DNA of 55,386 nucleotides from Clostridia bacterium (GTDB lineage: Bacteria; Bacillota; Clostridia; Oscillospirales; Acutalibacteraceae), in assembly GCA_017416345.1 (NCBI GenBank), contig JAFQCR010000019.1:1-55386 (forward strand), read 5' to 3'. Shown piece after piece: positions 1,074-33,611 of the stretch. Positions within the stretch are counted from its first letter, which is position 1. Every line of letters starts with the position of its first letter. Under the pieces are notes generated by a model. The model saw only the letters and a list, made by a program, of their open reading frames with translations, did no database searches and was not told the DNA's origin. Made by a program: the position numbers and the translations under genes.

Positions 1074-1949
1074 TTAATTGTTTTTGCAAAGCTCTTTTTG
1101 TATCAGCTTTATCATGATGCTTGTGTTAAGCTCCATGGCGTCTCTGGGGTAAACATCCACAACAAAGCCGTGGTAAAATTTTTGGCGGAAATACTCCAGC
1201 GCATCGTTTTCATTGCCGCCGCTTTTGAGAATGCCGCATATCTTTTCGGCAACCTCGACCGAGGTGTTATAGCTTATCTTCAAAAAATCCTTGGTGTATT
1301 GCGGCTCAAGCAGGCCGTAGTGCGGCACCGCCATCTGCACGACCTCAAGCTGTTGCGCTTTTTTGATGGAGTCGAGCGCCGTTTGATAGCCGATAAGATA
1401 GGACGGCACCACGATGCCCTCGCCGCCGAAAACGCCCAGCGTTTCGGAATTTAAAAGCATTTTTTCTGCTTCAAGATAGTACCCGACCGAGCATCTTGTG
1501 TGTCCCGGCAGGTCAATGACGGTAAACTCCATATCGCCAAACCGCACGGTGTCACCGTCGCAAACGGCAATGTCGACCTTCAAATCATCTACAAGGTCAT
1601 CGTATTCACCCACGCCGCATTTGTCGGCAAATTTGCGGTCAAGCTCACGCATCAACCTCTTGGCCGACGGCTTTTGAAAAATACCTACGGCATATTCTCC
1701 TGCAACCACCTTGGCGGTGGGGTAATGTTTTAGAATATACGGAGTGCCAAGCGCATGGTCGTAGTGCGAATGGGTCAGCAGAATTGCCGCAAGCGGTCGG
1801 TCGGCCAAAGCAGTCTTGATGTTTTCGGCCACACGGTAGCCCGTGAAGGCAAAGCCTGTATCATACAGCACGGCGGTGGTGCCGTCATCTATCAAAAATG
1901 CGGCATCGCCCGGTACGGCACGCACGTCAATGACCCTGATATTGCTCAT
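1074..1949 (-). CDS. Metallo-beta-lactamase-fold hydrolase
   Basis: 291 residues. The signature THSHYDHALG (near residue 60) is the HxHxDH metal site of the metallo-beta-lactamase superfamily. A second His lies in DLPGHTRCSVG (near 150), an Asn/Glu in the segment NSETLGVFGG, and a further candidate metal His in AVPHYG (near 210). There is no signal peptide, so it should be a cytoplasmic binuclear metal hydrolase. The family covers glyoxalase II, lactonases and many enzymes of unknown substrate, and nothing here fixes the substrate. AGAGGG precedes the ATG at 1949. It is transcribed alone, with a terminator right after it and repeats upstream. Confidence 0.85.
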   Translation of the reverse strand: MSNIRVIDVRAVPGDAAFLIDDGTTAVLYDTGFAFTGYRVAENIKTALADRPLAAILLTHSHYDHALGTPYILKHYPTAKVVAGEYAVGIFQKPSAKRLMRELDRKFADKCGVGEYDDLVDDLKVDIAVCDGDTVRFGDMEFTVIDLPGHTRCSVGYYLEAEKMLLNSETLGVFGGEGIVVPSYLIGYQTALDSIKKAQQLEVVQMAVPHYGLLEPQYTKDFLKISYNTSVEVAEKICGILKSGGNENDALEYFRQKFYHGFVVDVYPRDAMELNTSIMIKLIQKELCKNN

Positions 1950-2017: not shown

Positions 2018-2347
2018 CTCGGGCGAACAGGAAAGCCCCTACGGTTAGGCGGATCGGTTTTGTAGGGTCGCATCACGATGCAACCGAGGGCGATTCGTGA
2101 ATCGCCCCTACGATGAGGTAAATTAATTTTTGTAGGGACAGGCGTCCTCGACTGTCCGCAAAGCCGTCTTATGGCGGCAGGAGCAACCTCTGACAGAGGC
2201 CGTCCCCCCTTTGTCGCTTTGCGACATTTCCCCCACGCCGTGGGGGAATCTTCCCTGCCCTACAATTTTTTGATGTTTTTGTAGGGAAGGCATTTATGCC
2301 TTCCGCAAAGCAGGCTTTAGGTGGGCGAACGCAGTTCGCCCCTACGG
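2018..2347. repeat. Composite intergenic repeat block 1
   Basis: Non-coding block of end-to-end hairpin modules. It includes gggcgattcgtgaatcgccc (2088-2107), ggaaggc-atttat-gccttcc, gggcgaac-gca-gttcgccc, and a roughly 80-base unit at about 2175-2262. That unit is the near-perfect reverse complement of 15815-15895. Many modules end in a (cc)cctac / gtagggg motif. Small open frames here are accidental. Confidence 0.8.
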
Positions 2348-2352
2348 TCAAC

Positions 2353-2438
2353 TGCGCAAAGCGCAATTTAGCTTTTGCGAAAGCAAAAATTTAGCTATGC
2401 GAAGCATAATTTAGCTGTTACGCAGCAACAATTTAGCT
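2353..2438. repeat. Mini-array: constant ATTTAGCT alternating with variable hairpins
   Basis: Four copies of ATTTAGCT are each preceded by a different short hairpin: TGCGC-AAA-GCGCA, TTTGC-GAAA-GCAAA, ATGC-GAA-GCAT and the weaker GTTACGCAGCAAC. The period is about 20-22 bases. It sits in the 3' intergenic region between the MBL gene and the FrhB-like gene. It does not code for protein and is not CRISPR-like, because the variable parts are all self-complementary. Confidence 0.8.
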
Positions 2439-2569: not shown

Positions 2570-3619
2570 TTATTTTTTATCTCGGAAAAATATAAGCTGT
2601 TTCAAATGCCTTATTGCAGAAACGACCCAAGTCGTGTTCTTCAGGCGGTATCTGAGTCTTCCGCTACATTTCACGACAGCCTTATGAAGTCCTTCTGTAT
2701 CCAACAGACGGCCGAATTCTTCGCGTTTTTTAGTACGTTTCTTGTTTGCATAATACATTTCATTATGCTTTAACACATGATCTATATTCGCAGTGCTCAG
2801 GCAAAATGTTGTTCTGTCCAGCTTTGACATCAACCTGTTTCCTTTTTCGGTTCTGACAATAAAAACCGAAACACCCAGCGGATTAAATCGCACATCGTGT
2901 TTTGAAAGACCTCTGTAATCTCCTAATATCAGATCCGCCGGGTGGCCGTGTCCTTTAAACCTGCAATTGTAACAGGCTAACCGTGAATAAACACTCAAAG
3001 CATAGCCGTAATCCGAACGGTAAAAAGGCTCTTCGAATACTGTTCCGCTTGCAAATTCGGCGCGAACATACGCCTCGAGCCAAAAACCCTTTTTATGCCT
3101 TACCGTGAAGCTTATTATTTTTGAGTCAAAACGCTGTTCGAGGCTGTCGATATATTGAGCAGATACCTTTTGTGAGGTCGGCCCGTAGCAAATCAGTTCC
3201 GCTGTATATAATCCGGAGATGTCCGATCTTTGTGACAGAAGGTAGCTGTATAATGCTGAGACGGCGCAACCGACTCCTATAAAAAGCACTTCCGTGCTTT
3301 CTTTGAGCTTTTGGTATACCAGTGAATAAACACTTTGATATTCGTTGTTATAAAACACTCGTTTGTCGGTTTCGATATATTTCGATCCTTTAAGTTTTTC
3401 AAGATCTTCCATGCTTTCGGCACAGTAATACTCAGCCCTCTTGAAATTGTCGGTATATGCTACACCAAAAACACAGCCCCCGTTCCCGATGATCGCCTCT
3501 GCTAATGCCGAAGCGCCACCACCGGACGATGAATTCCTCAACTTGTCTTGGTTTACATAGTATCCCGAAAAGGCTCTGAGTTCATTGGGGACAAATACCG
3601 AATCATCTTGTTTGTGCAT
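2570..3619 (-). CDS. Coenzyme F420 hydrogenase/dehydrogenase beta subunit-like protein, lacking the ferredoxin part
   Basis: 349 residues from the ATG at 3619, which GGAG precedes by 7 bases; in-frame TTG codons further up are less well placed. The order of segments matches the FrhB/FdhB family: NSSSGGGASALAEAIIGNGG, GCVFGVAYTD, LKGSKYIET, an LFIGVGCAVSAL strand in place of the usual GTPCQ, ELICYGPTS, and LACYNCRFKGHGHPADLILGD near the C-terminus. These proteins are flavin/Fe-S reductases that often occur in polysaccharide or redox loci. The N-terminal two-[4Fe-4S] ferredoxin domain typical of many relatives is absent, as is the P-C-Q motif. This may be a degenerate or specialised form whose electron donor is unclear. 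It is divergent from the XRE regulator at 3782. Confidence 0.75.
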   Translation of the reverse strand: MHKQDDSVFVPNELRAFSGYYVNQDKLRNSSSGGGASALAEAIIGNGGCVFGVAYTDNFKRAEYYCAESMEDLEKLKGSKYIETDKRVFYNNEYQSVYSLVYQKLKESTEVLFIGVGCAVSALYSYLLSQRSDISGLYTAELICYGPTSQKVSAQYIDSLEQRFDSKIISFTVRHKKGFWLEAYVRAEFASGTVFEEPFYRSDYGYALSVYSRLACYNCRFKGHGHPADLILGDYRGLSKHDVRFNPLGVSVFIVRTEKGNRLMSKLDRTTFCLSTANIDHVLKHNEMYYANKKRTKKREEFGRLLDTEGLHKAVVKCSGRLRYRLKNTTWVVSAIRHLKQLIFFRDKK

Positions 3620-3679
3620 AAGCTTTCTCCGCAACAATGTTTTTTGAATATAAAATTCAAACTATAAGTTGATAAATCA

Positions 3680-4124: not shown

Positions 4125-4420
4125 GGGAGCGCTTTGGCACATTTACACCCTGTAAGGTTGACCGTAATTGCCTTCCCCTACGACAAGCCTTCATCAGATG
4201 TTTTGCCTTCCCCAGCGGAAGACTCTCCTATAAGATGGGAGAGATGTCTGCGAAGCAGACAGAGAGGGACGGTCCCCGTAAGGGGAAGGGGGACCGCGTT
4301 AGCGGTGGATGAGGAGAACACCGTCATACCTGACTGCAAATGATACAATACAGTCGGCTTCGACGGGAGCCATTGGCCTCCCCTACGACGGTAATGAATA
4401 ATTTTGAGCTTTAACACACC
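4125..4420. repeat. Composite intergenic repeat block 2
   Basis: Non-coding. Positions about 4172-4350 match the reverse complement of 15440-15562: the same CCCCTACGACAAGCC entry, GATGTTTTGCCTTCCCC, a GACCGCGTTAGCGGTGGATG core and a tail ending TGATACAATACAG. This copy carries about 55 extra bases (about 4220-4275) made of the hairpins CTCTCC-TATAAGAT-GGGAGAG and TGTCTGC-GAA-GCAGACA. Open frames across it are spurious. Confidence 0.8.
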
Positions 4421-4506
4421 GTCGGTGTCGATATGTGCTTTGCACTCGATATGTTTGCTTTCGCTAACTCGATATGCCTTCGGCTCGATATGTGCCGTTG
4501 CCACGC
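4421..4506. repeat. Mini-array: constant TCGATATG alternating with variable hairpins
   Basis: TCGATATG occurs at 4428, 4446, 4469 and 4485. The spacers fold as GTGC-TTT-GCAC, GTTTGC-TTTC-GCTAAC (one mismatch), GCC-TTC-GGC, and a last weaker GTGCCGTTGCCAC. The design matches 2353-2438, but with a different constant 8-mer. Bases 4507-4640 continue as further repeat modules, ending in gggcgattcgcggatcgccc. Confidence 0.8.
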
Positions 4507-24879: not shown

Positions 24880-25015
24880 GTCTCATTAACGACATAACCT
24901 GTAAGTATTCAATAAACTCGTAGGGGCGAACTGCGTTCGCCCACGGGCGACCACAGGTCGCCCCTACGGTCTGAATATTTATACAAGTGATTGTTTAATG
25001 AGACAGCCTTTTTCT
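24880..25015. mobile_element. Candidate MITE or repeat-invaded terminator
   Basis: AGCTGTCTCATTAA (24880-24893) and TTAATGAGACAGCC (24996-25009) are terminal inverted repeats. The arms continue imperfectly as cctgtaagtattca and tgaatatttatacaag. The centre (24922-24966) is the dispersed module gtaggggcgaac...gtcgcccctac. TTTTTCTTTT follows the right arm, so on the plus strand it could end transcription from the CDF gene. No transposase or target duplication was recognised. Confidence 0.5.
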
Positions 25016-25051
25016 TTTAAACGAGCACTATATTATGAGTTCAAGTGTTAA

Positions 25052-25197
25052 ATGAATTGACGGTAAACCGTCATGAATTGATGCCAAGGCATCATGATTT
25101 CTCGCACTCTGCGCTCCGTGAATTGAATTGCCCAAAATTTCAATACCGAAGGCAATTCATGGCGATAGCCAATTCATGCCCAATGGGCAATTCATTG
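25052..25197. repeat. Mini-array: ATGAATTG / CAATTCAT alternating with variable hairpins
   Basis: ATGAATTG occurs at 25052 and 25073; its reverse complement CAATTCAT occurs at 25153, 25170 and 25188. Interleaved hairpins are ACGGT-AA-ACCGT, ATGCC-AA-GGCAT, GGC-GATA-GCC and GCCC-AAT-GGGC. The left half is direct and the right half inverted about a centre near 25120. It ends 4 bases before the GH2 stop codon. Confidence 0.8.
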
Positions 25198-31086: not shown

Positions 31087-31099
31087 ACCAATGTTTAAA

Positions 31100-31330
31100 G
31101 ATGATAAACGGAAGAGTAATCGGTCTTAAGCCTTCAGAGAGTTGGCGGCAGGTGCGAGCCAACGGCGGCAATCGGTGAAAGACCCCGTTTTGTCGGCGGA
31201 AGAACGGCTCCGGCCTATTAGACCCGCCCGTGAGACAAGCGTTAATTTCTTTAAAGTGAGCCATTTTGGCTAATTTGGGTGGTACCGCGGAAGCTGTCTT
31301 TCGTCCCATTAGGGATAGGACAGCTTTTTT
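31100..31330 (+). promoter_or_regulatory. T-box leader (predicted Asp specifier GAC)
   Basis: The T-box TGGGTGGTACCGCGG (31276-31290) and a following terminator (AAGCTGTC...GACAGCTT then T run, 31291-31330) are clear. Stem I fits if AACGG (31107-31111) pairs with CCGTT (31185-31189) and ATCGGT (31119-31124) pairs with ATCGGT (31171-31176) through wobble pairs. This leaves AGAGTA opposite GAAA-GAC-C, so the specifier is GAC (31181-31183), an Asp codon matching the downstream AspRS. AGAGAG and GGTGCGA are the usual apical motifs. Uncharged tRNA-Asp would favour antitermination. Confidence 0.92.
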
Positions 31331-33463: not shown

Positions 33464-33554
33464 CCTCCTTGTTCGAGTCCCACGCTTTTTTGCACCAAAA
33501 CAAAAAGCAGTATCTTGCGATACTGCTTTTCATTTTGGTGGACGCTGGGGGACT
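33464..33554. repeat. 91-bp direct repeat, copy 2, joined to the intact tRNA-Val
   Basis: Perfect copy of 33274-33364, offset by 190 bases. Its right end is continuous with the functional tRNA-Val gene. The 99 bases between copies hold further small hairpins (ACATTCC-acc-GGAATGT and GAAAGCC-tct-GGCTTTC). Confidence 0.9.
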
Positions 33555-33611
33555 CGAACCCTCGACCGCCCGCACGTCAAGCGGGGGCTCTACCAGCTGA
33601 GCTAAACGTCC
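33536..33611 (-). tRNA. tRNA-Val (anticodon GAC)
   Basis: Minus strand cloverleaf: acceptor GGACGTT / AGCGTCC with one G-T pair, D-arm TAGCTCAGCTGGTAGAGC, and anticodon stem CCCGC / GCGGG around loop TTGACGT giving anticodon GAC. The T-loop is TTCGAGT with one A-C mismatch in the T-stem, and discriminator A plus CCA are encoded. It reads GUC and GUU valine codons. Confidence 0.95.

Follow-up and report, generated by a model that had tools for sequence, protein, structure and literature searches.

Word-and-hairpin arrays associated with S23-family proteins in Clostridia appear to belong to an undescribed class of mobile DNA

The window (the whole stretch of 55,386 nucleotides that was analysed) contains three short arrays in which a constant word alternates with small hairpins. 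Array 1 (2353..2438, + strand), a one-armed copy of an ATTTAGC family without a gene, reads TGCGCAAAGCGCA-ATTTAGC-TTTTGCGAAAGCAAAA-ATTTAGC-TATGCGAAGCATA-ATTTAGC-TGTTACGCAGCAACA-ATTTAGC, with its words at 2366-2372, 2389-2395, 2409-2415 and 2431-2437 and a hairpin before each word (2353-2365, 2373-2388, 2396-2408 and 2416-2430). Read on the word strand, the loops are c(AAA)g, c(GAAA)g, c(GAA)g and c(GCA)g. The alternation reported here by an initial annotation is present and exceeds shuffled sequence. Its constant 8-mer is in fact a 7-nt word, the eighth base being the first stem base, and its four complementary hairpins do exist, although the fourth contains one A-C mismatch. Beside array 1, outside the element, lie a metallo-beta-lactamase-fold gene (1074..1949, - strand, Pfam PF00753) and an FrhB/FdhB-type gene (2570..3637, - strand, Pfam PF04432).

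The two further arrays that had been listed with other words were also recovered, as TCGATAT (4428-4491) and ATGAATT/AATTCAT (25052-25195), the last with two inverted arms. Array 2 (4417..4504, - strand) is one-armed: a hairpin at 4417-4427 is followed by TCGATAT words (ATATCGA on the - strand) at 4428-4434, 4446-4452, 4469-4475 and 4485-4491, with hairpins between the words and a damaged hairpin past the last one. Array 3 (25045..25197, no strand assigned) is a degenerate AATTCAT element that keeps both arms, with ATGAATT at 25052-25058 and 25073-25079 and AATTCAT at 25154-25160, 25171-25177 and 25189-25195. All three arrays are intergenic, between protein genes, and the neighbouring genes tested are ordinary. 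An Rfam scan, run on the window only, returned a T-box leader (31095-31311) and a tRNA gene (33539-33611), neither of them over the arrays. GTAGGG-type hairpins with variable stems adjoin arrays in the window (2041-2360 and 24920-24975) and at locus L178 (4985-5506) on contig C16 of the same genome (G000), where C16 and C35 hold array copies within similar mosaics.

A de novo search of the window for 7-mer-hairpin-7-mer patterns gave 13 matches, ten of them inside the three arrays, as compared to a mean of 1.07 and a maximum of 3 in 30 dinucleotide shuffles of the window; an absence of such excess had been named beforehand as grounds for dismissing the arrays. When the array 1 spacers were shuffled singly, the observed stems were reached with P 0.00035 to 0.0054. 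The number of words is by itself weak evidence, as 6 of 100 shuffles reach four copies of ATTTAGCT, and array 1 folded by itself is not unusually stable relative to shuffles (z -1.2); the evidence is therefore the arrangement of words and hairpins. Shuffles and distal windows served as controls, since reversed hairpins stay hairpins and a reversed sequence is uninformative.

As the initial annotation had proposed, the word-hairpin-word pattern was searched in the same genome and its relatives. Pairs of ATTTAGCT separated by 6-24 nt occur seven times in the genome itself (three in the window, the others on three more contigs) and in 6 of 60 relatives, where the reversed-pattern control gave one match. 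Across the class they were found in 41 of 291 genomes, several with a single and possibly chance match; the reversed-pattern control gave 11 matches in 9 genomes. Searches with TCGATATG and ATGAATTG found pairs in 6 and 9 of the 60 relatives, respectively, and genomes G000, G046 and G056 carry all three pair types. Public genome contigs hold at least 119 stretches with the ATTTAGCT pattern, mainly from gut and rumen Clostridia; among the 119 listed, 19 are titled as non-Bacillota and may be chance matches. When orthologues of the window arrays were sought in the three other genomes of the genus, good matches were confined to gene pieces and GTAGGG-type repeats, and one weak match of 52 bases in G001 overlaps the end of array 1.

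In the relatives, complete elements consist of two inverted half-arrays, typically with four words per arm and a different hairpin after each word. The complete AATTCAT elements of G056 are about 240 bp long and run from four words with hairpins through an inner ATTAAGG and a long hairpin to an AT-rich centre, then through a second long hairpin, CCTTAAT and four inverted words with hairpins. Words and hairpins abut with no linkers, and several copies have damaged words; in the DNA fold of one copy (z -11.55), the words pair into nested helices from which hairpins branch off at the side. This two-armed plan is shared by the ATTTAGC and ATATCGA families, and window arrays 1 and 2 retain one arm of it and array 3 both. 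Some G056 units are directly tandem (TCATAACTCATAAC), unlike the hairpin-spaced words of the window. The three window arrays are partial copies of mobile elements, and array 1 is a decayed copy that lacks a gene.

Two G056 elements contain a small central open reading frame, and both frames match PF05635 (88.4 and 76.8 bits; cut-off 33.8) and TIGR02436 (113.7 and 102.4; cut-off 24), that is, the 23S rRNA intervening-sequence protein (S23), here called IVP. PF05635 was found at 74 places in 29 of the 60 relatives, and 72 of these were surveyed as loci. The arrays are associated with the gene: word-hairpin-word units lie within 600 bp upstream at 36 of the 72 loci, within 600 bp downstream at 15 and further away at 11, and their density is 2.77 per kb upstream, 0.80 downstream and 0.19 in distal sequence. 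Among the 119 listed stretches, chosen by ATTTAGCT alone, an IVP profile HMM found four genes, and within 400 bp of every one of them lie 8-9 ATTTAGC words. In gene-carrying copies the IVP gene is either enclosed by the arms or follows directly after an array. In G017 it is flanked by two nearly identical direct copies of an array (L160 1380-2300, contig C6) and in G046 it lies between similar direct copies at a contig end (L224, contig C32), somewhat like a gene flanked by LTRs; each G017 copy ends in AAAGGAG, which resembles a ribosome site, ahead of the next gene.

The contig of the window has no PF05635 gene, and the association was hence invisible to the initial annotation; the four IVP genes of this genome lie on other contigs, and one, of AATTCAT type, is beside an array on C13 whose element has the plan of array 3. 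Locus L198 shows the ATATCGA family of array 2 with both arms and an IVP gene. Several observations count against an element built around IVP. The other 36 of the 72 loci have no unit within 600 bp upstream, two deep IVP clades have no hairpin arrays, none of the four IVPs of the window's own genome is of ATTTAGC or ATATCGA type, and in some array-rich genomes, such as G046 with its 25 AATTCAT pairs, no matching IVP was found.

The words co-evolve with the protein. In a tree of 64 of the 72 IVPs (those under 95 aa were dropped) words are distributed largely by clade, and the words of some sister clades are only one or two letters apart (ATATCGA/ATATCGC, ATTTAGC/ATTTACC and ATATAAC/TCATAAC). 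The three word "dialects" of the initial annotation were thus too narrow a description, as at least 15 related words exist, and each goes with its own lineage of a single protein. Words were assigned at 35 of the 72 loci by a loose pattern fixed after the first words had been seen, which biases the letter consensus, and a single unit underlies 7 of the 35 labels. The distance between words is correlated with that between proteins (r 0.525 for all pairs, 0.542 between host families), and 0 of 5000 permutations reach r in either comparison, with 31 rows tested, five of which carry single-unit labels. In 19 of 22 cases an IVP shares its word with its nearest counterpart from a different host family. 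AATTCAT arrays are present in 5 of 5 genomes with an AATTCAT-type IVP, the gene's own array being counted, and in 4 of the 55 genomes that lack such an IVP. One set of hairpins in G012 is combined with ATATAAC in one copy, while other copies have TCATAAC at three words in a row (L339 2486-2851 and L341 500-669), whereas G056 shows the reverse case of constant words with hairpins that differ between copies, so that words and hairpins evolve separately. The G012 difference resembles a change of dialect caught part-way.

Short intergenic palindromes in many copies are also characteristic of REP/BIME repeats, and a weak Y1 match (a RAYT-like gene) about 3 kb from the arrays on contig C16, together with the GTAGGG-type hairpins adjoining the window arrays, would suit movement by a RAYT (Y1 transposase). 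We disfavor this explanation as very unlikely. REPs are tagged with GTAG or CGTC (PMC3733652, in its accessible part), while the present words have neither tag and follow a different protein, IVP; units were found at 0 of 8 Y1-transposase control loci, and G017 and G055 have AATTCAT arrays with no Y1 match at E 0.001.

The elements are polymorphic in their presence between sister species. One G056 AATTCAT element has no counterpart at the corresponding site of G062 and G063; there the two flanks adjoin directly, and some 20 bp of G056 flank is missing as well. In place of a second element, G062 has 17 bp and G063 about 620 bp, which hold another gene. One G062 element that is absent from G056 provides the stop codon of the preceding gene. 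At these three sites the flanks are 81-92% alike and the junctions are not clean; no clear target duplication was seen in the diverged flanks. The small number of such sites and the state of their junctions count against a mobile element. Comparison of all loci retrieved with 266 array clusters, a number in which many sites recur because loci overlap, gave no further present/absent site.

Ten orthologous elements could be aligned, as the initial annotation had advised. Three pairs differ by whole units, by one (L185/L209), two (L187/L213) and two (L194/L217), and two have one half-arm replaced, with new hairpins that are again self-complementary. A process that adds or rewrites hairpins, as suggested earlier, is therefore supported to the extent that units are gained or lost (3 of 10 pairs) and half-arms replaced (2 of 10). 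Continual rewriting at one locus is contradicted by the eight unswapped pairs, in which stems are near-identical between two species and loops differ more. The independent variation of stems under fixed words was borne out, with stems conserved as pairs, and these alignments suggest that the hairpin diversity arises mainly between copies of a mobile element. Gain and loss of whole units could also result from slippage. An origin as ordinary low-complexity or slippage-made sequence is refuted by the excess over shuffles, by compensatory changes, by the loop polarity described below and by the linkage of word to protein, and we assign it a negligible probability.

In the eight unswapped pairs (the two swapped ones were omitted), differences amount to 4/392 in words, 3/356 in stems, 7/115 in loops and 330/3764 in flanks. 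Words and stems differ from loops with P 0.0003. Two of the four word changes are in stray words outside elements, owing to which the "centre" class holds some flank; without these and their 14 bases, words and stems together have 5/734 differences and are better conserved than the flanks, gene-less copies included. At one hairpin position compared across 11 sequences, which were picked by eye, with one shifted sequence (G152) dropped, all 77 of 77 cells are paired although three of the seven pairs vary, and changes are two-sided (compensatory) in 11 cells and one-sided in one. The conservation of gene-less copies hints at a role for the host and counts against a mobile element. The arrays might then be chromosomal binding sites for nucleoid structure or topology, with IVP as a host DNA organizer and movement incidental. 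We regard this as quite unlikely, given sites that are present or absent between sister species, the patchy spread of ATTTAGCT (6 of 60 relatives), the sharing of a word and its IVP type by host families that are distantly related, and IVP genes within foreign operons on plasmids.

The stems and loops bear on whether the arrays act as DNA or RNA. Stems of ATTTAGC elements, oriented by centre, contain 972 Watson-Crick, 6 GT, 7 AC and 11 other pairs, and those of IVP loci, where the sense strand is fixed, contain 525, 4, 2 and 3; these counts omit the spacers that have no clean hairpin (39 of 233 and 25 of 126, respectively). An RNA helix should tolerate GU over AC, and we read the stems as DNA because no G-U excess is present. 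GNA triloops closed by C-G form unusually stable DNA minihairpins. Among 500 perfect hairpins from 744 unique spacers (the other 244 were set aside), the word strand has GNA triloops in 151 cases vs 4 for TNC, GNNA tetraloops in 89 vs 0 for TNNC, and CTTG loops in 17 vs 0 for CAAG. Energy models favor the word strand in 131 vs 24 hairpins with DNA parameters and 114 vs 55 with RNA parameters, the others being equal; since both models favor the same strand, energy separates DNA from RNA weakly. The Watson-Crick stems and the loop polarity on the word strand point to folded single-stranded DNA. Inverted arms favor opposite strands, so one single strand would show favored loops in only one of its arms, which counts against this reading.

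The predicted fold of one IVP is a bundle of four helices (pLDDT 93.7), closest to 2RLD (S23 family, TM 0.92) and then 2GSC, both solved with five chains. It is also the fold of Avd, the accessory protein of diversity-generating retroelements (DGR; TM 0.79, E 0.023), and a resemblance of PF05635 to Avd has been stated (PMC10053308, accessible part). Among the elements read, none drew notice for a reverse transcriptase or for template/variable repeats. According to the accessible part of PMC4990558, the Xanthomonas protein is a pentameric toroid, the S23 protein lacks a known function, and both the role of intervening sequences and where they come from are unclear. The likeness to Avd, which acts with a reverse transcriptase and RNA as seen in DGR ribonucleoprotein structures, raises the alternative that the arrays act as RNA, either as a transcribed multi-hairpin RNA that IVP binds and that moves through a reverse transcriptase borrowed from elsewhere, or as a terminator or 5'UTR. 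The mostly upstream position of arrays relative to the IVP gene is in keeping with this, as is the excision of 23S rRNA intervening sequences from RNA (PMC4990558). The lack of a G-U excess over A-C extends to the IVP loci, where there are only six such cells, the tetraloops follow GNYA (53) over GNRA (36), against the RNA rule, and Rfam has no match over the window arrays; we consider an RNA role unlikely.

The 23S rRNA intervening sequences (IVS) encode S23p proteins of the same family and have been called selfish and horizontally acquired, with inverted ends; in Coxiella, tandem heptameric repeats directly precede the S23p gene (PMC4990558, accessible part). IVS occupy rRNA genes, and RNase III cuts them out of the rRNA (PMC4990558), whereas the present elements are intergenic or in operons, many lack a gene, and their words are spaced by hairpins. 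As the window arrays are not inserted in an rRNA gene helix, the position that characterizes IVS, and the words have neither a REP tag nor a Y1 transposase, we set the element apart from both IVS and REPs. With IVS it shares only the protein and, in the one published case, heptamers (PMC4990558, accessible part). Gene-less short copies beside rarer gene-carrying ones, and insertion polymorphism, recall MITEs; in contrast, the present copies vary internally while the words stay, and they have no transposase and no clear target duplication. The initial annotation knew of no described family with this design, and our searches of the open-access literature, which leaves out most subscription papers and all bioRxiv-only preprints, listed none, nor any paper recognized as linking S23/IVS proteins with dispersed arrays of words or hairpins. 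We conclude that the arrays look like members of an undescribed kind of bacterial mobile DNA.

Heptamers in intergenic tandem arrays have been described in Xanthomonas, Nostoc and Beggiatoaceae, often as inverted pairs in Xanthomonas; unlike the window arrays, these have no hairpins between words, and the accessible parts of both papers contain no S23 or four-helix terms and so name no protein partner (PMC4692102, PMC4679880). We examined the flanks of IVP homologues on 20 plasmids, the ones listed of 25 records: 17 cyanobacterial, several being near relatives, and one each from Bernardetia, Treponema and Monoglobus. Period-7 runs of at least 14 occur in 27 of 40 windows flanking these genes vs 2 of 80 distal windows, with no such enrichment at any other period from 4 to 12. 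By locus, 17 of 20 have such runs (16 of 17 cyanobacterial, and Bernardetia), the runs of Treponema (12, 13), Monoglobus (6, 6) and one Nostoc (4, 5) being below the threshold. The plain 7-nt words are inverted across the plasmid IVP gene, as in Nostoc C052 with AATTCGT before and AATTACG after it. In Clostridia, 37 IVP loci have no hairpin arrays, and period-7 runs that reach 12 or more occur in 9 of their 74 flanks vs 0 of 142 distal windows. We hypothesize that the published heptamer repeats and the IVP elements belong together.

With moderate confidence, we favor the reading that the arrays are the arms of a family of mobile elements around IVP, whose ring would read the words on folded single-stranded DNA and aid movement or persistence. 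Both the binding of IVP to the words and the chemistry of movement are inferred. The IVP ring, pentameric in solved relatives, would bind the words along one DNA strand, each subunit perhaps taking one word, and the hairpins would be looped-out spacers that keep the strand folded. By holding the two inverted arms, the ring might allow host DNA machinery to copy or move the element, perhaps from single strands associated with replication. Gene-less copies, such as the three in the window, would move in trans or be remnants. It is speculation that four words per arm plus an inner word suit a ring of five subunits. More tentatively, and as a possibility that we would not yet call probable, a single undescribed class of mobile DNA may underlie S23/IVS proteins, the 7-nt repeats of other phyla and the Clostridia arrays, with a ring that reads lineage-specific words on folded single-stranded DNA and moves it using no known transposase, recombinase or reverse transcriptase.

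The tie between IVP and a co-varying 7-nt word turns binding into a question with built-in controls, a protein's own word against that of another lineage. It offers a way to study a protein family of long-unknown function, and a candidate partner for heptamer repeats that two papers, in their accessible parts, describe without one (PMC4692102, PMC4679880). Were the single-stranded DNA reading true, DNA would be moved or kept outside the known transposase, recombinase and reverse-transcriptase classes.

PADLOC gave no match for two IVPs. At loci L333, L334, L319, L337 and L338, as annotated, IVP genes lie inside operons: between cas2 and cas1 in Anabaena and Nostoc, between hsdS and hsdR in Monoglobus, and after drmD of DISARM in Planktothrix. 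At L200 (4029-4385, - strand, contig C43 of G056), two ATATCGA arms enclose a 118-aa open reading frame instead of an IVP gene. A recurring ATTTAGC hairpin of the ATTGAGTGAAACGAGATA type, for example in G336 (contig C91, 16516-16549), seems to keep tandem G-A stem mismatches across genomes. IVPs accompanied by hairpin arrays of further dialects are also present on two putative phage scaffolds from human faeces, whose sequence may be that of a host.
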